This document shows positions 1 through 8,032 of a DNA stretch of 64,000 bases, piece by piece. The position numbers were made by a program, and so were the translations under genes. How positions within the stretch are numbered: the first letter of the stretch is position 1; each line of letters opens with the position of its first letter. The DNA comes from Flaviaestuariibacter sp. (GTDB taxonomy: Bacteria; Bacteroidota; Bacteroidia; Chitinophagales; Chitinophagaceae): positions 248,001 through 312,000 of the forward strand of contig JAOQAI010000013.1 in assembly GCA_025963645.1 (NCBI GenBank), written 5' to 3'. The notes under the pieces were generated by a model, which did not search any database, was not told where the DNA came from, and worked only from the letters and a program-made list of their open reading frames with translations.

Positions 1-1
1 G

Positions 2-1129
2 GCATTTGCCCTGGTCACCGGAATACTCTGGCCTACTCTTTTTCTCGCATTGAGTTTGGCGGGTACTGTCATTGCAGGTTTGCTATTATGGTTTGAAGTT
101 GATAAGTCAAATCCCTTTTTACAGCAGGTTTGTTCCGGGGGCGCCAACACCAATTGTTCAGCGGTGCTGGCTTCAAAAGGCGCCAAACTTTTTAGCTGGC
201 TAAGCTGGAGTGAAGTTGGGTTCTTTTATTTCACGGGAAGCTTCATAATGCTCCTAGTAAGTTTGGGAAATGGGCTTGTGCCTGCCTTTGAATTACTCTC
301 GTTACTAAGCCTTTTGGCTACGCCCTACATACTATTTTCAATAAGTTACCAGGCTAAAGTGGCTAAGCAATGGTGCCCTCTATGTTTGGGGGTTCAGGCA
401 GTCCTGCTGATGCAGGCAGTGGTGGGGTTTTCCAACCTTCGGGAGGCAGGTTGGAAAAGGTCTTTTATATCATCGCTATCGGGCGTAGAGCTTACCCTTA
501 TGCTATTTTCTTTTGCCCTGCCGGTAATTTTCTGGATGATGGCAAAAGCACCTTTCAAGGCTGTTCAGGCAGAGCAGAAAACAGGCAAGGAACTGAGGCG
601 GCTGAAATACAACAAAGAAATTTTTGAGGCGTTGTTGGCAAAGCAAAAAAGGGTCACTGTTTCACCGGATGGATTGGGTATCATACTCGGCAACCCTCAG
701 GCAGCTACTACGATCATTAAAGTTTGCAATCCCTACTGTGGTCCATGTGCCAAAGCACATGAAGTGCTTGAAGAGTTGCTAAGGGAGCGCGACAATATTA
801 AACTTCAAATAATATTTTCAGCAACCACTGGTGCCAATGACAGGAAGGCTCTTCCTGTAAAACATTTTATGGGACTTGATGCGGGCGGTTCCGGTAAACT
901 CATTCAAAAAGCATTGCATGAATGGTACATTTCCACGGATAAAAACTATGAGACGTTTGCATCTCAGTATCCGCTTACTCAAGATATTCTTGCCGCTCAG
1001 GAAGCAGGTCTGGTGGCTATGGGGGAATGGTATCTTGAAAATGAAATAAATTTTACACCCACAATATTTGTAAATAACTATCAGCTTCCGGATATCTATT
1101 CCGTAAAGGATTTGAAGTATTTGCTATAA
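2..1129 (+). CDS. VKOR-thioredoxin fusion membrane protein, 5' end cut by window
   Basis: The open frame runs in from the left edge, so the true start lies outside the window; the first in-frame TTG at 50 is probably internal. Several hydrophobic segments carry the vitamin K epoxide reductase (VKOR) layout: a Cys pair eight residues apart (QVCSGG...NTNCSAVL), then a CPLC motif in a later membrane segment. A thioredoxin-like domain with CGPC follows in the C-terminal half. Bacterial VKOR-Trx fusions oxidise cysteines of exported proteins and pass electrons to quinones, so this should form disulfides in the periplasm. In Bacteroidota such proteins often also have an N-terminal C39-peptidase-like domain, which would be outside the window. 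It sits 86 nt before a Cys-rich double-Gly peptide gene, which fits a role in folding that peptide. The domain call is firm; the substrate is inferred. Confidence 0.85.
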   Translation, partial: AFALVTGILWPTLFLALSLAGTVIAGLLLWFEVDKSNPFLQQVCSGGANTNCSAVLASKGAKLFSWLSWSEVGFFYFTGSFIMLLVSLGNGLVPAFELLSLLSLLATPYILFSISYQAKVAKQWCPLCLGVQAVLLMQAVVGFSNLREAGWKRSFISSLSGVELTLMLFSFALPVIFWMMAKAPFKAVQAEQKTGKELRRLKYNKEIFEALLAKQKRVTVSPDGLGIILGNPQAATTIIKVCNPYCGPCAKAHEVLEELLRERDNIKLQIIFSATTGANDRKALPVKHFMGLDAGGSGKLIQKALHEWYISTDKNYETFASQYPLTQDILAAQEAGLVAMGEWYLENEINFTPTIFVNNYQLPDIYSVKDLKYLL

Positions 1130-1133
1130 CCGC

Positions 1134-1150
1134 TTTGTGTGCACAACAAA
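1134..1150 (+). promoter_or_regulatory. 17-nt dyad element, copy 1 of the peptide cassettes
   Basis: TTTGTGTGCACAACAAA. The core TGTGCACA is a perfect palindrome, flanked by TTTG and, after one extra A, CAAA. The identical 17 nt occur at 6480-6496, and in both places the start codon of the peptide gene begins 66 nt after the last base of the element. It could be an operator or an RNA leader structure; no good TAnnTTTG box was found beside it. Confidence 0.7.
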
Positions 1151-1215
1151 ACCGTAGCCGAGTTCCGTACGGGTACCAAACCGGAACCATAATTTAAAGT
1201 ATAAAAACGAGTCTG

Positions 1216-1440
1216 ATGAAAAAATTTCAAAGTTTAGGAAGAAGCCTGAGTGGATCAGAAATGCGAATGATCCTTGGTGGCGATGAGCCGGTTTCCATCA
1301 TTGGCGAAGGCGACAGCACTTGTAACGCCTATTGCGGAAGTGGTTCAGGTGTTACATGCAGCGGGCGTTGCGTTACTTGTGGCGATGCAGGCAATGCTTC
1401 TAACCCCAATGTTAGAGGGGGCGATAAAATCTGTTCTTAA
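1216..1440 (+). CDS. Cys-rich peptide precursor with double-glycine leader (peptide 1)
   Basis: This 74-aa precursor has a bacteriocin-type leader: it opens MKKFxSLGRSL, has EM at 15-16 and ends in Gly-Gly at 21-22, the site where C39-peptidase exporters cut. The predicted 52-residue core contains six Cys, five of them clustered (CNAYC, then three within nine residues) and one near the C-terminus, enough for three disulfides. It also has a second GG near the C-terminus (RGGDK). The leader is almost identical to that of the peptide at 6562, while the cores are unrelated beyond being Cys-rich. The neighbours are a VKOR-Trx upstream, a TlpA-like thioredoxin downstream and a C39 ABC exporter. It resembles Bacteroidota GG-leader natural-product/bacteriocin precursors in general form; antimicrobial or signalling activity is not shown by sequence. 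Confidence 0.85.
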   Translation: MKKFQSLGRSLSGSEMRMILGGDEPVSIIGEGDSTCNAYCGSGSGVTCSGRCVTCGDAGNASNPNVRGGDKICS

Positions 1441-1449
1441 TCAGTATAT

Positions 1450-1471
1450 AACCGGGGGCATCTCCCCGGTT
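1450..1471 (+). terminator. Hairpin between peptide 1 and its thioredoxin gene
   Basis: AACCGGGG (1450-1457) and CCCCGGTT (1464-1471) form a perfect 8-bp stem with a 6-nt loop, followed by a T-rich but interrupted tract. It lies ten bases after the peptide stop and 17 bases before the next start, so it may act as a leaky terminator or mRNA-stabilising hairpin that makes the peptide more abundant than the thioredoxin. An equivalent hairpin occurs at 6828-6861. Confidence 0.6.
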
Positions 1472-1488
1472 ATTTCTATATTTCAGGT

Positions 1489-2628
1489 ATGCGTTTCATT
1501 CTTTTTACTTTTTTTATTGTGCTTTTATGGAATTCAGATGCTGTTTCCCAATCCCTTAAAACGGAAAGCGATTCATTTCATCTTACCGGAATACTTAAAG
1601 GCAGGGATACGGGTACCATGGTGCTTTGGTATCCCCAGTTCGGGCAGTTTATAAGGGATACATGCGTATTAAAAAAAGGCAGGTTTCTGTTTTCAGGGCT
1701 CATTACGGAACCGGCTTTTTCCTGGCTAAAGGGGTCGGCAGCAGATGGGAATTCAACAAATATTTTTATTGAAAAAGGTAAACAGCACATCATTCTTGAA
1801 GAGAATAGCTTCGATGAATTCCACATGTCCGGTTCTTATACACAAAGGCAGGATGATACGCTGAGAAGAGTAAAAAAACAGATTGATCTTAAATATAAAA
1901 AGTGGAGAGGGGAGTACGCAGGTTTAGTGGATACGTTGCCAAAGATCAGCGACTCTATTTATAAGGTTGCCGTGATGAATCGCATCACTCACATCGCCGA
2001 CACTCTGGATAAGGAATACCGCCACAAAGCACTAGCCTTTGTAAAAAAGCGACCGCAATCCTATACTAGCCCCACCTATCTGTATGGATTTCTAGTAAAT
2101 CGTAAAATAGATACCGAAGGAGCGGAATTGCTATACCAGTCGTTTAGCCCAAAGATAAAAACCAGTTATGCAGGCAAGCTGGTGCGGCAGGAGTTGGATA
2201 AGCGAAGGATCAATATAAATGCCCCGGAATTTACGGCTACTGATTTATCCAATAGTGCTGTTTCTCTGCGTGGGTTCAAAGGAAAGTTCGTGCTGCTTAA
2301 TTTTTGGGCAAGCTGGTGCCTGCCCTGCATAGATAAAATACCAGAGCTAAAACGTCTGTTAGATTCCTGCCAATCCAGGGGGTTCGAAATTATAAACATA
2401 TCAATTGATACAAAAAAGGAAAATTGGAAGGCGGCGGTACAAAAGCATACCCTGGGCAAATTCCATAATGTACTTGTAAACAAAGAACTTGAAGATCGCT
2501 ACCCGAATATTAAGATGCCGATACCAAGCGAGATTCTTATTAATCGTGAGGGAGTTATCATCTGGAACTCATTAAATGAATCAGCCAGACCACTAGGCGA
2601 GATATTAATGAAGCAAATTGGAAACTAA
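1489..2628 (+). CDS. TlpA-like thioredoxin with DUF4369-type N-terminal domain
   Basis: A 379-aa protein with an N-terminal signal peptide (about residues 1-20). Residues about 28-130 look like the DUF4369 domain common in Bacteroidota periplasmic thioredoxins (beta-rich, with the phrase LTGILKG near the start). The C-terminal third is a redoxin/AhpC-TSA fold with WASWCLPC, the CxxC site at about 278-281, and a later cis-Pro region (MPIPSEILI). Such proteins act on thiols or disulfides outside the cytoplasm. It follows the Cys-rich peptide 1 gene by 48 nt with a hairpin between, and a second, shorter TlpA-like protein follows peptide 2, so a role in isomerising or reducing peptide disulfides is a reasonable inference. 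The direction of electron flow cannot be read from sequence. Confidence 0.85.
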   Translation: MRFILFTFFIVLLWNSDAVSQSLKTESDSFHLTGILKGRDTGTMVLWYPQFGQFIRDTCVLKKGRFLFSGLITEPAFSWLKGSAADGNSTNIFIEKGKQHIILEENSFDEFHMSGSYTQRQDDTLRRVKKQIDLKYKKWRGEYAGLVDTLPKISDSIYKVAVMNRITHIADTLDKEYRHKALAFVKKRPQSYTSPTYLYGFLVNRKIDTEGAELLYQSFSPKIKTSYAGKLVRQELDKRRININAPEFTATDLSNSAVSLRGFKGKFVLLNFWASWCLPCIDKIPELKRLLDSCQSRGFEIINISIDTKKENWKAAVQKHTLGKFHNVLVNKELEDRYPNIKMPIPSEILINREGVIIWNSLNESARPLGEILMKQIGN

Positions 2629-2730
2629 CACATTTCTTGGAAATCTTTTCGGATACGTACACGATAGAGATACAAAAGTGCGACTTAGTAAACAGTGAGT
2701 AAATCATAGAGGGATTGAGCTCTACACGCA

Positions 2731-2754
2731 TTGTTTGCACAAAGCAAAACCGGT
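2731..2754 (+). promoter_or_regulatory. Divergent third copy of the dyad element, upstream of the exporter
   Basis: The sequence matches the cassette element with changes: TTGTTTGCACAAAG, then CAAAACCGGT. Compared with 1134-1150 and 6480-6496 there is a G-to-T change in the left arm and a 2-nt insertion (AG) before CAAA, and the trailing CCGG is also shared. It ends about 22 nt before the preferred ATG at 2777, much closer than in the peptide cassettes. Common regulation of exporter and peptides is inferred. Confidence 0.5.
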
Positions 2755-2776
2755 CATTGATAAATTGATTCAAATA

Positions 2777-5146
2777 ATGTCTTTTCCATTTTATAAGCAG
2801 CCCGACTCTATGGACTGTGGTCCCACCTGCCTGCGTATGGTGGCAATGCACTACAAACGGGCTATATCCATACAATATTTGCGGGAGCGCTCGGGCATCG
2901 GCAAAGAAGGTGTTAACCTGCTCGGCATCAGCGAAGCTGCCGAAGCGATTGGGCTGCGCAGCCAGGCAGTTAAACTAACTTACGCGATTCTAACCACCGA
3001 AGCGTCATTACCGGCTATCCTTCACTGGAACCAGAACCATTTTGTAGTTCTCTATAAAATAAAGCGGCATAAGTTATATGTGGCAGATCCTGGGAAAGGA
3101 CTGGTCACATATACGCCTGCAGAATTTAAGGGGGCATGGATTAGTGATAAAAAAGGGGCAGAAGAAGAAGGGATAGCACTCCTCCTGGAGCCATCACCCT
3201 CTTTTTATAAGGATCATAATTCCGATCGGGAGGAGCAACAAGCCAAAGGCTTGGGTTTCAAAAATATTTTTAATTACGTATTGCCTTTTAAAGGCTTGGT
3301 AGGTCAGTTATTACTTGGGTTAGGCATTGCCAGCCTGTTGCAATTGATACTTCCATTTCTCACGCAAAGCATTGTCGATACGGGCATCAATACAGCCAAC
3401 ATCCATTTTGTCTATATAGTTCTCATGGCGCAGGCGGCCCTCTTTGCTGGCCGCCTGGCGGTCGAGTTTGTGCGTAGCTGGATCTTGCTGCACATCAGCA
3501 CCCGCATCAATATTTCTATTCTCACCGACTTTTTGATAAAGCTCATGAAACTGCCGGTATCTTTTTTTGACAGCAAGCAAACCGGCGACATCCTGCAACG
3601 GATGAACGATCATAGTCGCATTGAATCCTTTCTTACCGGCTCTTCGCTGAATACCCTTTTTTCATTGCTTAACCTCGTTGTATTTTCCGTAGTGTTGGCC
3701 ATCTTTAATGGGGCCGTTTTTACCGTCTTTGCTATTGCTTCAGTACTTTATGCGCTATGGGTAATGCTTTTCTTAAAAAAGCGTAAGACCCTGGACTACA
3801 AGCGGTTCGAAGTGGCGGCGAAAGAGCAAAGCGCTACCATCCAGTTAGTGCAGGGCATGCAGGAGATTAAGCTGATTGGTGTAGAGAGGCCCATGCGCTG
3901 GCGGTGGGAGCGCCTGCAAGCCAGGCTTTTTGGGTTAAGTATGCGCGGTCTGGCGCTGAACCAGTGGCAACAGTCTGGCGCTTCCTTTATCAACGAAGGC
4001 AAGAATATGCTGATCACCTTCTTTGCCGCTAAGGCCGTTATTGAAGGACAAATGACCCTGGGTTCCATGCTGGCTGTTCAATACATCATTGGGCAGTTAA
4101 ACAGTCCTATTGAGCAGATGATCGGCTTTATGCAATCCTGGCAGAATGCGAAAATCAGCATGGACCGCCTGAATGAGATTCACACTCTCGAAGACGAAGA
4201 ACCGGAACATAAGGAGCTACAACAACGGCTGCCTCCAGCTTTTGCACGGCAATTGGTGGGCGGAAAGAGTTCGTTACCGGTGCCCCCAATGGGCAGCGGT
4301 TCTCTCATGACGCGCCCTTCCATTTTGGAAGATCCGGAAAATAACCGGGGTGCCTATTCCTCAGGCTTGCAAAGCGAAAAAGGGCTATTTGCGGAAACAA
4401 ATATGGATGCCTCACTTAGCTTTCGGAAACTGTCCTTCACGTATCCTGGTGCAGGGGCCAGCCCGGTGCTGCGGGAAATTGATCTTTCCATCCCGAAAGG
4501 ACAAACGACCGCGATAGTGGGCACAAGCGGTAGTGGAAAGACTACACTTTTAAAGCTGTTGCTGAAATTTTATGAACCTGGGCAGGGTGAAATTTTATTG
4601 GGACGCACACCGCTCCGGCATATCAGCCACCGGCTTTGGCGTAGCCATTGCGGCGTAGTGATGCAGGACAGCTTCATCTTTTCCGATACCATTGCTGCAA
4701 ACATTGCCGTTGGCGATGGGCATGTCGATATGGAACGGCTCTACCGGGCGGTAGAAGTCGCCAACCTGCAGGAATTTATGGAGAGCTTGCCGCTGGGCTT
4801 TAATACCAAAATCGGTACGGAAGGTACCGGCATTAGTACCGGTCAGCGCCAGCGCATTCTCATAGCCCGTGCCGTCTATCGCGATCCCGAATTTATTTTC
4901 TTTGATGAAGCCACCAACAGCCTCGATGCCAATAACGAAAGCGTTATCATTCGCAACCTGGAACAATTCTTCTCGGGCAAAACCGTGATCGTGGTCGCCC
5001 ACCGCTTAAGCACGGTAAAAGCGGCTGACCAGATCGTGGTGCTGCACAAAGGCACTATTGCCGAAAGGGGCACCCATACCGAATTGGTGAACCGTAAAGG
5101 CCACTACTATACCCTTGTCAAAAATCAATTAGAGCTGGGCGCATAA
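2777..5146 (+). CDS. C39-peptidase-containing ABC exporter (bacteriocin type)
   Basis: A 789-aa PCAT-type transporter that cleaves double-Gly leaders and exports the cargo. The N-terminal C39 peptidase has Cys14 in DCGPTC, His88 in NQNHFVV and Asp104 in VADPGKG. A six-helix ABC membrane domain follows, then a nucleotide-binding domain with Walker A GTSGSGKTT (about 582-590), signature STGQRQR (about 685), Walker B FIFFDEATNSLD (about 705) and the H-loop VVAHR. ATG at 2777 is preferred because the peptidase motif then starts at the usual distance; an upstream in-frame GTG/ATG-like start would add 14 residues. A linker of roughly 75 residues, rich in Gly, Ser and Pro, separates the two ABC domains and looks longer than usual. 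It is followed after 11 nt by the HlyD adaptor, and both are flanked by GG-leader peptide genes, which are its likely cargo. Confidence 0.93.
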   Translation: MSFPFYKQPDSMDCGPTCLRMVAMHYKRAISIQYLRERSGIGKEGVNLLGISEAAEAIGLRSQAVKLTYAILTTEASLPAILHWNQNHFVVLYKIKRHKLYVADPGKGLVTYTPAEFKGAWISDKKGAEEEGIALLLEPSPSFYKDHNSDREEQQAKGLGFKNIFNYVLPFKGLVGQLLLGLGIASLLQLILPFLTQSIVDTGINTANIHFVYIVLMAQAALFAGRLAVEFVRSWILLHISTRINISILTDFLIKLMKLPVSFFDSKQTGDILQRMNDHSRIESFLTGSSLNTLFSLLNLVVFSVVLAIFNGAVFTVFAIASVLYALWVMLFLKKRKTLDYKRFEVAAKEQSATIQLVQGMQEIKLIGVERPMRWRWERLQARLFGLSMRGLALNQWQQSGASFINEGKNMLITFFAAKAVIEGQMTLGSMLAVQYIIGQLNSPIEQMIGFMQSWQNAKISMDRLNEIHTLEDEEPEHKELQQRLPPAFARQLVGGKSSLPVPPMGSGSLMTRPSILEDPENNRGAYSSGLQSEKGLFAETNMDASLSFRKLSFTYPGAGASPVLREIDLSIPKGQTTAIVGTSGSGKTTLLKLLLKFYEPGQGEILLGRTPLRHISHRLWRSHCGVVMQDSFIFSDTIAANIAVGDGHVDMERLYRAVEVANLQEFMESLPLGFNTKIGTEGTGISTGQRQRILIARAVYRDPEFIFFDEATNSLDANNESVIIRNLEQFFSGKTVIVVAHRLSTVKAADQIVVLHKGTIAERGTHTELVNRKGHYYTLVKNQLELGA

Positions 5147-5157
5147 AATTATTAGTT

Positions 5158-6456
5158 ATGTCTCATTCCTCCCTCCAACAGCACAGCAATGAATTGATCT
5201 CCGAAGAGGTCCGGGAAATTATAGGCTACCGGCCCCACTGGATTGTTCGCCGGGGCAACACCGTCTTTTTTGGTGTTCTGTTTTGCCTGTTAGCGGCCAC
5301 CTGGTTCATCCGCTACCCCGACCGTGTCGAGGGCTCCGCCCGCCTGGTGGCGGTAAATGCGCCGAAGATGTTAACGGCAACGGCAGAAGGCAAGCTGGAA
5401 AAGCTCTTGGTGCGCAATGAGCAGGGGGTAAAAAAAGGGGATATGCTCGCTTATCTGCAAAGCACGGCAAGCGCCGGTGAAGTACTACGGTTAAGGACCT
5501 GGGTAGGCGCTCGCCTACTTGCATTGGAAGAAGGCGGTTTTCAGGTGTTGCACAAAGATCCTTTACCGGCGTTTACGCAACTGGGTGAGCTGCAACAGCC
5601 TTACCAGGAATTTGGTCTCGTAAGTACAGAAACAGCTCAGTTGCTGGGGAGCGGTTATTACCAAAAGAAGAAGGCCGCCCTGCTGAAAGACATGGCGTTT
5701 CTGGCGGCTCTTAAAACCAATACGGTAGCCCAAAAGAGCCTGATGGCGGAAGACCGGGGCCTGCAGCAAAAGGAATTTGAAGCCTACGAGGCGCTGGCTC
5801 GCGATAAGGTAATTGCTCCGCTGGAGCTGAACCAGTATAAAAGCCGCTTGCTCGCCAAAGACCAGGGACTCGACCAGGTGGACGCCCAGTTAACTAATAG
5901 TGCTATCGCCACGCATAACAAGCAGAAAGAACTTGCCGACCTGCAAAAGTTTACATTCGACCAGCAACAAAAATACCTCGCTTCGCTGCTAACCTTAAAG
6001 AGTGCGATAGATGCCTGGATGCAGCGATACATTGTGCAGGCCCCTGAAGAGGGCACCGTTTATTTTGTGGGTTCTTTACAGGAGAACCAGTTGCTCACCA
6101 TCGGGCAGGAGCTGTTCTATATTCAGTCGCAACGTTCCGGCTATTACGGGGAGCTTATGATCGGGCAGGCAGGACTGGGAAAAGTACGGAAGGGGCAGAC
6201 AGTTCTCTTAAAAGCACCCAGCTATCCGAGTGAGGAATGGGGCCATATAAAAGGTCGTATCGCCGCCATCGCCAACCTCTCCAACAGGCGTGATAGCTTC
6301 CTCGTGACTCTCGAATTAACGGAGGGCTTAAGAACAAGTTATGGTAAAGAGCTTTATTTCCGCAATGGTTTGGCAGCACAGGGGTCTGTCATTACAGACG
6401 ACCGGCGCCTATTACAACGATTATTGGGGCAATTAAAGGGGGTGTGGGAACGGTAA
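5158..6456 (+). CDS. HlyD-family periplasmic adaptor of the peptide exporter
   Basis: A 432-aa membrane fusion protein. A short cytoplasmic N-terminus is followed by one membrane helix (about residues 34-50, VFFGVLFCLLAATWFI), a lipoyl/barrel-sandwich half (APKMLTATAEGKLEKLLV...VKKGDMLAYL), a long coiled-coil hairpin (about 180-290, rich in Lys, Gln, Glu and Leu), and the second lipoyl half plus beta-barrel region. Such adaptors connect an inner-membrane ABC exporter to a TolC-like outer-membrane duct; no TolC homologue is encoded in the window, so the duct must come from elsewhere. It starts 11 nt after the C39 exporter, evidently the same transcript, and ends 23 nt before the second dyad element. 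Confidence 0.92.
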   Translation: MSHSSLQQHSNELISEEVREIIGYRPHWIVRRGNTVFFGVLFCLLAATWFIRYPDRVEGSARLVAVNAPKMLTATAEGKLEKLLVRNEQGVKKGDMLAYLQSTASAGEVLRLRTWVGARLLALEEGGFQVLHKDPLPAFTQLGELQQPYQEFGLVSTETAQLLGSGYYQKKKAALLKDMAFLAALKTNTVAQKSLMAEDRGLQQKEFEAYEALARDKVIAPLELNQYKSRLLAKDQGLDQVDAQLTNSAIATHNKQKELADLQKFTFDQQQKYLASLLTLKSAIDAWMQRYIVQAPEEGTVYFVGSLQENQLLTIGQELFYIQSQRSGYYGELMIGQAGLGKVRKGQTVLLKAPSYPSEEWGHIKGRIAAIANLSNRRDSFLVTLELTEGLRTSYGKELYFRNGLAAQGSVITDDRRLLQRLLGQLKGVWER

Positions 6457-6479
6457 CAAAAAATAAAAAATACTAACTT

Positions 6480-6496
6480 TTTGTGTGCACAACAAA
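6480..6496 (+). promoter_or_regulatory. 17-nt dyad element, copy 2 of the peptide cassettes
   Basis: TTTGTGTGCACAACAAA, identical over 17 nt to 1134-1150. It is followed by a GC-rich stretch with two ACCGGT palindromes that could pair in RNA. The peptide ATG at 6562 begins 66 nt after the last base, exactly as in copy 1, although the intervening leader sequences otherwise differ. Confidence 0.7.
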
Positions 6497-6561
6497 CCGG
6501 TTGTTTCGCTCTTTACCGGTCTCAAACAGGAGCAGATTAATAATCCTTAAATTGTAGACAA

Positions 6562-6807
6562 ATGAAAAAGTTTGAAAGTTTAGGCAGAAGCCTGAATGCT
6601 GGCGAAATGAAGCGCATTGTAGGTGGAATTTATGATTTTCCAGAGAGGGTAAATTGCCTGATTGGATGGAGATTAGACCCAAATGTTGGCTGTTTTTGTG
6701 ACTTTTATGGTGTTTCTTCTCCAGATTCTGTTACATGCGATGTTTCTTGCCCGGCCACAATGTGTACATCCGGTTCAATTGATCTCAGTTGTCCCTATTT
6801 TAACTAA
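6562..6807 (+). CDS. Cys-rich peptide precursor with double-glycine leader (peptide 2)
   Basis: This 81-aa precursor shares the leader of peptide 1 (MKKFxSLGRSL, EM at 15-16, Gly-Gly at 21-22); 16 of the 22 leader residues are identical. The predicted 59-residue core has seven Cys, including a CFC pair, a TCDVSC pair and a final SCPYFN tail. It is otherwise different from the core of peptide 1, the usual pattern for peptides sharing one C39 exporter but having separate activities. An odd number of Cys leaves one unpaired, or allows dimerisation or modification. It lies directly after the exporter and adaptor genes, with its own dyad element and a hairpin behind it. No tailoring enzyme such as a radical SAM or lanthionine synthetase is visible, so disulfide formation is the likeliest modification. 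Confidence 0.85.
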   Translation: MKKFESLGRSLNAGEMKRIVGGIYDFPERVNCLIGWRLDPNVGCFCDFYGVSSPDSVTCDVSCPATMCTSGSIDLSCPYFN

Positions 6808-6827
6808 AATTGGCTCATAGTTTTTGG

Positions 6828-6861
6828 ATCTACACTAACTGGTGGTATGGTTGGTGTAGAT
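6828..6861 (+). terminator. Hairpin between peptide 2 and its thioredoxin gene
   Basis: ATCTACACTAAC (6828-6839) pairs with GTTGGTGTAGAT (6850-6861) over 12 bp with one G-U pair and a 10-nt loop, followed by TATTTTAAT. It occupies the same place, peptide stop to thioredoxin start, as the hairpin at 1450-1471, but has no sequence in common with it. Leaky termination or processing is inferred. Confidence 0.6.
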
Positions 6862-6885
6862 TATTTTAATCAAGAATATCCTTAT

Positions 6886-7452
6886 ATGAAAAAACTTTTT
6901 CTGCTCTTATCGATCGCGGTATCATATTCAGTAACGGCTCAGAAGCATAAAGACTCGGTTGCCATAGGGTTTATGCAAGAATTAGCCGAACGGATCAACT
7001 CAATCAAGGGAAAAGAGTTAAGTGAATTTGATGCTTGTACTTTAGATGGAGTACGGTATACATCTGATAGCCTTCGGGGAAAACTTACGGTTTTAAGTTT
7101 TTGGTTTGAGGCTTGCATGCCCTGTGTTGCAGAGGTAGCAGGGCTAAACCAGCTATACGCTGATTTTAAGGGTAACAATCATTTCCGGTTCCTTTCATTT
7201 ACTTTCGACCCGGTGGCGAAGGCAAAAGCCTTCGTTGCAAAAAATGATATTTGTTATCCGGTTATACGTTTGGAAGAACATCAAATTCGGAAACTTAATT
7301 TTAACGCTGGATTCCCTGTTATTGCTCTTGTTAACGAAGCTGGTATTGTTGTTTATTTTCGTGCAGGAGGTAGTAATAGCCCACAAATCGCAAAGGAAGA
7401 TTTGCTGAGAGATGTTTATCCGAATATAACTAAATTAGTGAAAATAAATTGA
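6886..7452 (+). CDS. Secreted TlpA-like thioredoxin (single domain)
   Basis: A 188-aa protein with a clear signal peptide (MKKLFLLLSIAVSYSVTAQ). The ATG at 6886 is chosen over one 39 nt upstream because it begins the signal peptide and because the upstream start would lie inside the hairpin. The mature part is an AhpC/TSA-redoxin fold with WFEACMPC (Cys77 and Cys80) and a later GFPVIALVNE strand containing the cis-Pro. It lacks the DUF4369 domain of its relative at 1489. It follows peptide 2 as that protein follows peptide 1, so the two peptide-thioredoxin pairs appear to be duplicated modules. Its likely job is handling disulfides of the exported peptide or of the apparatus. Confidence 0.83.
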   Translation: MKKLFLLLSIAVSYSVTAQKHKDSVAIGFMQELAERINSIKGKELSEFDACTLDGVRYTSDSLRGKLTVLSFWFEACMPCVAEVAGLNQLYADFKGNNHFRFLSFTFDPVAKAKAFVAKNDICYPVIRLEEHQIRKLNFNAGFPVIALVNEAGIVVYFRAGGSNSPQIAKEDLLRDVYPNITKLVKIN

Positions 7453-7575
7453 TACTACCAGCGGTCAGTTTGTGTAATTCTCGGGAATATGACTGCAACT
7501 GTCTTACTTCCCTCGTGAGTTCCCTCGAAGGTATTCGAGTTGTATCTGGAACTTGGGCGTTTGAATGCCTTGTAA

Positions 7576-7599
7576 ATTAAAAAGAGGCCGAAGCCTCTT
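7576..7599 (-). terminator. Terminator of the small membrane-protein operon
   Basis: Read on the minus strand, AAGAGGC, loop TTCG, GCCTCTT form a 7-bp stem (7582-7599) followed by a T-rich run. It lies just after the stop of the 61-aa gene at 7618. It also closes off the peptide locus arriving from the left. Confidence 0.7.
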
Positions 7600-7617
7600 C
7601 GCTTATCGCCGGTTAGT

Positions 7618-7803
7618 TTATTTTAGCCATCGCTGCACACACTTCAGCACTAGGGTAACCAAAAAGCTCACTGTTGCCCCCGTACACGCTAAAAGGGCTG
7701 TCTTAAGCAACTCCGATGTGTTGATTTGAACGATTAACACCAACAAGGTGCCGCTTAAGGTCCCTGCTCGGGTATTGTTGGAGGCAGGAACATTAGTTTC
7801 CAT
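7618..7803 (-). CDS. Small membrane protein (61 aa), holin-like partner, unassigned
   Basis: Starting at the ATG at 7803 (METNVPASNN...), the protein has a polar N-terminus, a hydrophobic stretch at about 17-28, and a second at about 36-54, ending in basic residues (KCVQRWLK). A longer frame extends upstream to 7866 but would overlap the neighbouring gene far more. The preferred start overlaps the end of the 79-aa gene by 11 nt, so the two are probably translated together. Size, two helices and basic tail resemble phage holins or small toxin-like membrane proteins, but no family is recognised. It ends at a good terminator. Confidence 0.6.
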   Translation of the reverse strand: METNVPASNNTRAGTLSGTLLVLIVQINTSELLKTALLACTGATVSFLVTLVLKCVQRWLK

Positions 7804-8032
7804 TGGTTGCCTCCTTTTTTGACGCTCGCTTACCGCCATTAGTGGTTTGGCAAACCGCTGCGGCAACGGTTCCCGCCACTACCAGGTAGCCCGCTAGTTG
7901 GTAAAGTTGGTGGGGTAGGGAAACCGGCAGCCCTAAAAGCGTGGCTCCGGCGGCAGCAATCGAAAGTGATAGCATCCGCACCTTCTTAAAAAAGGCCGGG
8001 GTAGGCGCCTTGATACGTTGTAGAAGTGTCAT
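7793..8032 (-). CDS. Small membrane protein (79 aa), conserved type in Bacteroidota
   Basis: It begins MTLLQRIKAPTPAFFKKVR and continues with two hydrophobic helices (about 20-38 and 45-62), ending in a basic and polar tail (GGKRASKKEATNGN). From memory, similar short proteins with an APTPxFFKK opening occur in many Bacteroidota genomes beside larger unassigned proteins like the one at 8273, but I know of no assigned function. It overlaps the next small gene by 11 nt and lies about 240 nt downstream of the 251-aa gene on the same strand, so the three probably form one accessory unit. Confidence 0.65.
   Translation of the reverse strand: MTLLQRIKAPTPAFFKKVRMLSLSIAAAGATLLGLPVSLPHQLYQLAGYLVVAGTVAAAVCQTTNGGKRASKKEATNGN

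Follow-up and report, generated by a model that had tools for sequence, protein, structure and literature searches.

Each of two genes for cysteine-rich peptides with a double-glycine (double-Gly) leader, both lying in a 64,000-nucleotide (nt) stretch of a Flaviaestuariibacter sp. genome (contig JAOQAI010000013.1, positions 248,001 to 312,000; hereafter the window), appears to be preceded by an RNA leader that consists of a hairpin (hairpin A) and an H-type pseudoknot and acts in cis, a reading to which we assign a probability of roughly 0.7. The leader probably controls the amount of peptide, in cis and after transcription. Comparison with related leaders supports the pairings of both pseudoknot stems (S1 and S2), an excess of such folds before double-Gly, Cys-rich peptide genes and a narrow distance to the start codon. 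Letters change freely among relatives and the pairing is kept, so that by this comparison it is the fold, not the 17-nt element (17-mer) at its 5' end, that relatives have in common.

The 17-mer, TTTGTGTGCACAACAAA, had been singled out in a first-pass annotation as an identical element at a fixed distance from both peptide genes, and for the window this is exact. It occurs twice on the forward strand (1134-1150 and 6480-6496), and the ATGs at 1216 and 6562 both start 66 positions past its last base, with 65 bases between. These are the only two places in the window that match at up to 3 mismatches, both with none, and the bare count is weak at that threshold, since 7 of 100 shuffles also gave at least two matches. 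The genes behind it do encode Cys-rich double-Gly peptides, with GG at residues 21-22 in both and 6 Cys in peptide 1 and 7 in peptide 2; their leader peptides, described as almost identical, share only 68% of 22 amino acids (aa). The intervening stretch, described as otherwise different, does differ in its letters but holds a pseudoknot that is kept and covarying. In copy 1, the 17-mer is either hairpin A (UUUGUG / UGCA / CA-A-CAAA with one bulged A, found by script) or a DNA palindrome; it is followed by S1 (1152-1172), in which 1152-1156 (CCGTA) would pair with 1168-1172 (TACGG), and by S2 (1162-1187), in which 1162-1167 (GTTCCG) would pair with 1182-1187 (CGGAAC) across a linker at 1173-1181. 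In copy 2, the last base of the predicted hairpin A doubles as the first of S1 (6496-6520; 6496-6501, ACCGGT, with 6515-6520, ACCGGT), and S2 (6508-6533) joins 6508-6513 (GCTCTT) to 6528-6533 (AGGAGC, one G-U) across a linker at 6521-6527; all these features lie on the forward strand. The 66-nt spacing is thus that of the pseudoknot plus a 28-nt tail.

The evidence for pairing comes from changes of sequence between leaders. Right after the 17-mer, alignment A2 shows an inverted repeat with differing letters in the two window leaders, W1 (copy 1, CCGTA/TACGG) and W2 (copy 2, ACCGGT/ACCGGT), and in the Flaviaesturariibacter flavus locus L026 (AGGTA/TACCT). Two leaders of another genome, G198, follow the same plan with other letters even at the position of the 17-mer (TTTGTTTGTGCAAACAAA, TTTCTTGCAAGGAA). 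In six leaders, the 3' half of the S1 loop pairs with a stretch downstream: the S2 strands are GUUCCG/CGGAAC in W1 and GCUCUU/AGGAGC in W2, unrelated in their letters, AUUGUG/CACAAU and GUUGCG/CGCAAU in G198, GUUGAG/CUCAAC in genome G369 and GUCCGG/CCGGGC in Flaviaesturariibacter. A loop of S1 that pairs downstream to form S2 is what defines an H-type pseudoknot; it was found here by sequence comparison, the assignment being made from pairing. As S1 and S2 are interleaved and covarying, the leader would act as RNA.

A consensus was drawn from 16 leaders in 11 genomes (genus labels g1, g40, g45, g52, g59, g61, g83 and g91, and Flaviaesturariibacter), of which 14 had been selected for S2 pairing and a GGTR/TACC core, W1 and W2 being placed by eye; the least certain is L233 (g61). 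Because MAFFT alignments of 8 (A3) and 14 leaders (A5) misplaced the helix strands, S2 was counted by script. Over the 16 leaders it is built from 15 different strands, all 95 of its 95 pairs are standard (88 Watson-Crick and 7 G-U), and each position shows 2 to 5 pair types. Pairs flanking the core of S1 form in 13/16 and 11/16 leaders, and loop letters that were not selected recur, L1 ending in GA in 10/16 and L3 in AAC in 11/16. S2 ends 23-33 nt ahead of the ATG, at 28 nt in both window copies, whose tails are A/U-rich. A fixed distance therefore survives as this narrow tail and not as a constant distance from the palindrome, which varies among leaders and is larger where an extra hairpin has been inserted. 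Six leaders that looked similar by eye (L096, L112, L119, L100, L113_422 and L113_2508) were scored by a general descriptor as not of this class; L160 and L162 (similar by eye, score 24), L081 (by eye, without a score) and L159 and L168 (by eye only) also stayed outside the 16.

The excess before peptide genes was measured with that general descriptor and with a narrower one. At a score of at least 27, the general descriptor found 15 of 97 leaders against 1.8 expected (3880 shuffles), part of these being other shapes whose last strand lies far from the ATG; with a limit of 20-40 nt to the ATG, the first set gave 11/95 against 0.40 expected. Under the same limit, 43 held-out leaders gave 4 at a score of at least 25 (0.60 expected) and 2 at a score of at least 27 (0.23 expected). 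The held-out set came from a search for the leader peptides (A4) in 394 genomes of the family Chitinophagaceae (65 with E up to 0.1), from which we chose part of the new places; 4 of these 53 had no ATG, and leaving out 6 of the 49 parsed gave the 43. A core descriptor (GGTR, 8-14 nt, TACC and an S2 of at least 12 points) fitted 14 of 140 leaders, 7 of them held-out ones, against 0.11 expected from its density in the same loci, and once the core was present S2 pairing followed in 14/21 cases in leaders against 11/406 elsewhere in those loci. Both window leaders are counted in the 140 and not in the 14, their cores being divergent (CGTA/TACG and CGGT/ACCG). Sets of 97, 95, 140 and 138 leaders arose by leaving out frames with fewer than 4 Cys or of at least 130 aa, those with short upstream sequence and leaders already counted. 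Exchanging loops among the 16 leaders, 14 of which had been chosen for pairing, left a foreign downstream stretch paired in 43 of 240 combinations; 20000 permutations of loop partners gave a mean of 3.66 and a maximum of 10 of 16 paired, and with letter-shuffled downstream stretches a leader's own loop paired in 6.8% of cases.

For hairpin A and S1, a covariance model (R1) was built from five leaders (W1, W2, L026 and the two of G198); in these, 96.2% of the cells of the two helices are paired, sliding the partners leaves no more than 53.8% paired, and 4 of the 11 pairs are changed on both sides. Run on the 394 genomes, R1 gave its best non-seed match (E 0.006) at G369:C138:7341-7389, directly 5' of a double-Gly Cys peptide (MEKFQKLGKILSKKEQKKVIGG...). 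Nested minimum-energy folds, which cannot contain pseudoknots and were read for one strand only, some loci thus being left out, retain S1 in W1 and W2. In 14/16 leaders, the 3' end of a hairpin is 0-3 nt from the core, where the script allowed up to 5.

Several results weigh against an RNA leader of this composition. R1 contains no S2 pairs, so its blind match tests hairpin A and S1 only; of its 65 matches at E 0.03 to 1, the 27 inspected as loci had no such peptide downstream by our own pattern, one of them having an unrelated frame that fitted the loose pattern. In the genera of G369 and G198, it matched 1/14 and 1/20 genomes, each already known, with no further copies, so that either the class of the window's leader is patchy or R1 is too narrow. 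The core descriptor was written after the held-out leaders had been read, the test with the earlier descriptor is weaker, and only 14/140 leaders fit the core. Nested folds pair the 17-mer with downstream bases and not with itself, that of copy 2 also pairs part of the tail, and W2 is without the innermost S1 pair. In single leaders hairpin A is weak (p of 0.01 to 1.0 against shuffles) and in 2/16 it was not found, a 17-mer-like hairpin stands directly before the core in 10/16, and in L166, L207 (two leaders) and L208 the hairpin found is an inserted one, the 17-mer-like palindrome lying 5' of it. The least certain part of the model is the action of hairpin A as RNA and not as DNA. The extra hairpin of L207 and L208 (CCTTTTCAAC...GTTGAGG) lies between palindrome and pseudoknot, and its 3' arm reaches into the AGGU of S1; the two could compete, which would make a possible switch.

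These doubts leave room for a reading in which the 17-mer works as DNA, either as an operator whose palindrome binds a dimeric regulator or as a promoter component, leaving the pseudoknot alone as the RNA element or as the start of the transcript, a real possibility that we rate well below even odds. The palindrome is perfect or nearly so in several leaders (TTGATTGCAATCAA, TTGTTTGCGCAAACAA, TTCAATGGCCATTGAA), hairpin A is not favoured by the nested folds of the window copies, and W1, W2 and Flaviaesturariibacter have the same 17-mer but pseudoknots of different letters, as expected of a site read by sequence. Against this, the window copies are asymmetric by one base, and one copy in L113 has a U-G pair, more readily accommodated by a helix than by a dimeric site; the source genome, which is 63% complete, has no more than two exact sites. 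The primary promoter of Bacteroidota carries TTTG or TAnnTTTG (the -7 element), according to passages of PMC6847099; no TAnnTTTG lies at or near the 17-mer in W1, W2 or L026, and the exact motif is present in 1/16 leaders. The promoter reading was rejected, the motif being in neither window copy.

The first-pass annotation had also proposed looking for the 17-mer in relatives. The source genome (2.57 Mb) has two exact copies, none with 1 mismatch and one with 2. Among 19 exact matches in wider genome contigs, one lies upstream of a double-Gly peptide, that of Flaviaesturariibacter flavus (Chitinophagaceae; L026), where 60 bases intervene, the ATG begins 61 positions on and the peptide opens MKKLTIAQIENKLSREEMKSIVAG...; 17-mer and peptide stand 3' of a VKOR-thioredoxin gene, as does the first copy in the window. 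No double-Gly peptide was seen behind the other 18. At up to 1 mismatch, the 394 family genomes have 29 places, against 11 for a reversed-pattern control, counted among the matches listed, and none of the 27 non-window places is upstream of such a peptide. The 17-mer was accordingly rejected as a family-wide sequence element: by this comparison its letters are kept between the source lineage and Flaviaesturariibacter, yet it is not a general element. A possible third copy upstream of the ABC exporter (TTGTTTGCACAAAGCAAAACC, about 2727-2750), 17-mer-like by eye, was dropped for want of an R1 match at E 10. The proposal of one element common to peptide modules that can be duplicated holds in so far as the 17-mer stands before a gene of this kind in another genus too and forms part of a leader that duplicated cassettes of relatives carry, and fails for the 17-mer alone.

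That the 17-mer is a functionless leftover of a recent cassette duplication is very improbable and was already disfavoured. Two copies do lie in one locus, and duplicated cassettes of relatives seemingly carry flanking remnants, such as the letters resembling the VKOR 3' end before L086_3448; the 17-mer is nonetheless identical in another genus, the window's leader peptides are only 68% identical, and the pseudoknot letters have been replaced with their pairing kept.

Taking the RNA leader as the preferred reading, we propose that each peptide gene would carry a 54-nt leader in which hairpin A, formed by the 17-mer, is followed directly by the H-type pseudoknot. In the pseudoknot, S1 would be joined by S2, in which the S1 loop pairs with a nearby 3' stretch. 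With its end 28 nt from the start codon, the pseudoknot would leave an A/U-rich landing zone, and the folded block beside this ribosome landing zone would set translation and/or shield the peptide mRNA independently of the cistron upstream, with the outcome that peptide would be made in excess over exporter and oxidases. Granted that the RNA is real, we hold this mechanism, whether by translation or mRNA protection, to be somewhat short of evenly likely. Neither window copy has a terminator-like site between pseudoknot and ATG; together with the A/U-rich tails, this makes control of translation start or of mRNA stability a better fit than attenuation. Passages of PMC6847099 describe the phylum as without Shine-Dalgarno sequences, and initiation in Flavobacterium johnsoniae as tuned by mRNA structure and by an A at -3.

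The same leader may be a metabolite-binding riboswitch, binding its ligand through S1, L1 (GA) and L3 (AAC) and switching peptide expression, which we consider unlikely. Its appeal lies in the recurrence of loop letters outside the helices (L1 GA in 10/16, L3 AAC in 11/16) where S2 is free, and in the existence of H-type pseudoknot riboswitches (SAM-V and guanidine-III, as described in source excerpts). Against it, no terminator-like site separates the pseudoknot from the ATG in W1 or W2, and there is no Rfam match; no metabolic gene was seen behind the leader, a weak argument since leaders were collected by their peptide genes. Like these riboswitches, the window leader is short, with interleaved S1 and S2, a short L1 and an A-rich L3. 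It differs in having no Rfam match, other genes behind it and unconstrained S2 letters, and in being preceded by a separate hairpin or palindrome. Further H-type pseudoknot leaders to which it can be likened are preQ1-I and SAM-II.

The genes around the two leaders all lie on the forward strand. The window begins with the 3' part (1-1129) of a VKOR-thioredoxin gene, a 539-aa frame that starts left of the window and ends in a stop codon 4 nt upstream of the 17-mer. Peptide 1 (1216-1440; 74 aa, 6 Cys) opens MKKFQSLGRSLSGSEMRMILGG... and is followed by a terminator-like hairpin (1448-1473), a TlpA/ResA-like thioredoxin protein (1489-2628; DUF4369 and AhpC-TSA matches), an ABC exporter with an N-terminal peptidase C39 domain (2777-5146; Peptidase_C39 E 4e-32, 111 bits) and an HlyD-like membrane-fusion protein (5158-6456; HlyD matches, all under curated cut-offs). 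Behind the second leader come peptide 2 (6562-6807; 81 aa, 7 Cys), which opens MKKFESLGRSLNAGEMKRIVGG..., another terminator-like hairpin (6827-6862) and an AhpC/TSA-like thioredoxin protein (6886-7452; family match); terminator-like sites number 14 in 1-8000 against 8.9 expected from shuffles. Peptidase C39 is the type of domain that cleaves double-Gly leaders, and with such a leader on both peptides and a C39-ABC gene nearby, export is predicted for both. By gene content and protein families, the cluster would be a cassette that secretes double-Gly Cys-rich peptides and forms disulfides.

VKOR-thioredoxin homologues occur in 60 of the 394 family genomes (E up to 1e-20), and at 20 of 27 loci listed the first longer frame after the gene reads as a peptide whose leader is of the GG or AG type. 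Among relatives' peptides, collected in the first set by our own pattern, which misses some, the commonest number of Cys is 6. Of 298 genomes sampled across the order (140 genera), 8 gave leader-peptide matches with E no higher than 0.001, and all 8 belong to this one family. In L086 (peptide at 3448), an extra cassette is preceded by a remnant resembling the VKOR 3' end and by the leader, and L098 (peptides at 4396 and 15655) shows the same less clearly, as if leader and peptide had been copied together from the VKOR-adjacent site. By eye, the usual place of the peptide right behind the VKOR gene is taken in L075 and L084 by proteins of about 100 aa that resemble helix-turn-helix regulators. 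Inspection by eye also suggested regulatory genes: at 4355-5745 of L158, left of the window, upstream of the cassette and on the opposite strand, a histidine kinase and a response regulator of the LuxR type, and a kinase/LytTR-like pair at 3244-4858 of L026, near the Flaviaesturariibacter copy.

Other leaders of such peptides appear to fold into a second, larger pseudoknot architecture, in which a 5' strand (PKa) is followed by P1, which encloses PKb and P2, and then by further sequence. At a score of at least 40 it was found in 13/94 first-set and 4/44 held-out leaders (17/138), against 4 of 2760 shuffles, at loci L085, L087, L092, L093, L111, L115, L117, L155, L213, L221, L239 and L243; G369, G138 and G143 have both architectures. 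PKa starts with TAG or TAA in 10 of the 17. In L087_7315, L092, L093 and L111 these letters are the stop codon of the VKOR gene; in L155_332 the same holds by letters alone, the contig beginning too close to show the gene. The P2 loops often hold TGCGCAA, TGCACAA or TTGCAAA, which resemble the centre of the 17-mer. None of the loci searched in Rfam was above a gathering score. Two further recurring leader types, TTGTAGGGCTTCCCCTACA-like and TTTCAATGGCCATTGAA-like, were noticed in genus g61 (L115, L231, L236; L117, L232, L233), and in g40 genomes (L122, L123) several peptides have a common long leader with ATTACTC...GAGTAAT-like arms, unlike both architectures.

A search of the whole window against Rfam 15 (4227 families) gave no match at the gathering score, and relaxed searches of both window leaders and some relatives' loci gave only matches below gathering scores; a known RNA family was therefore rejected for the loci searched. 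The peptides do not belong to TIGR04149 (NCBIfam), a Bacteroidota family of RiPP precursors with a similar double-Gly leader, scoring 9.8 and 11.5 bits where the cut-off is 25. To our knowledge, no class of structured RNA leaders has been recognised for secreted-peptide (bacteriocin-like) genes in Bacteroidota. Among the matches listed, the titles and abstract openings of open-access literature held no such leader, subscription papers being mostly outside that coverage. The Downstream-peptide and glnA motifs (RF01704, RF01739; PMC2864571) are alike as structured RNAs in the possible 5' untranslated regions of short unknown peptides; in excerpts of that source they come from cyanobacteria and marine samples, and the window has no Rfam match at the gathering score. 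Bacteroidetocins (PMC6671954) are likewise double-Gly, Cys-containing peptides of Bacteroidota with a peptidase-type ABC exporter and a thiol oxidoreductase. According to excerpts of that paper, their leaders have 15-16 aa and peptides A and B have four Cys, whereas the window peptides have 22-aa leaders and 6 or 7 Cys and, judged on leader length, are not bacteroidetocins; the window cluster also adds the VKOR-thioredoxin and HlyD-like genes, and in the bacteroidetocin text at hand the words 'untranslated' and 'C39' are absent.

What appears new is a leader without a catalogued RNA family; structured mRNA leaders are known as a kind, and the function proposed here is inferred. More tentatively still, the two architectures may belong to one family of regulatory leader RNAs for the secreted Cys-rich double-Gly peptides of Chitinophagaceae, in the larger of which the pseudoknot helix takes in the VKOR stop codon, so that translation of VKOR would unfold the leader and thereby link peptide output to VKOR synthesis, and whose fold would travel with cassettes that are duplicated and re-stocked with new peptides. 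Such a leader could also flag unannotated peptide genes.

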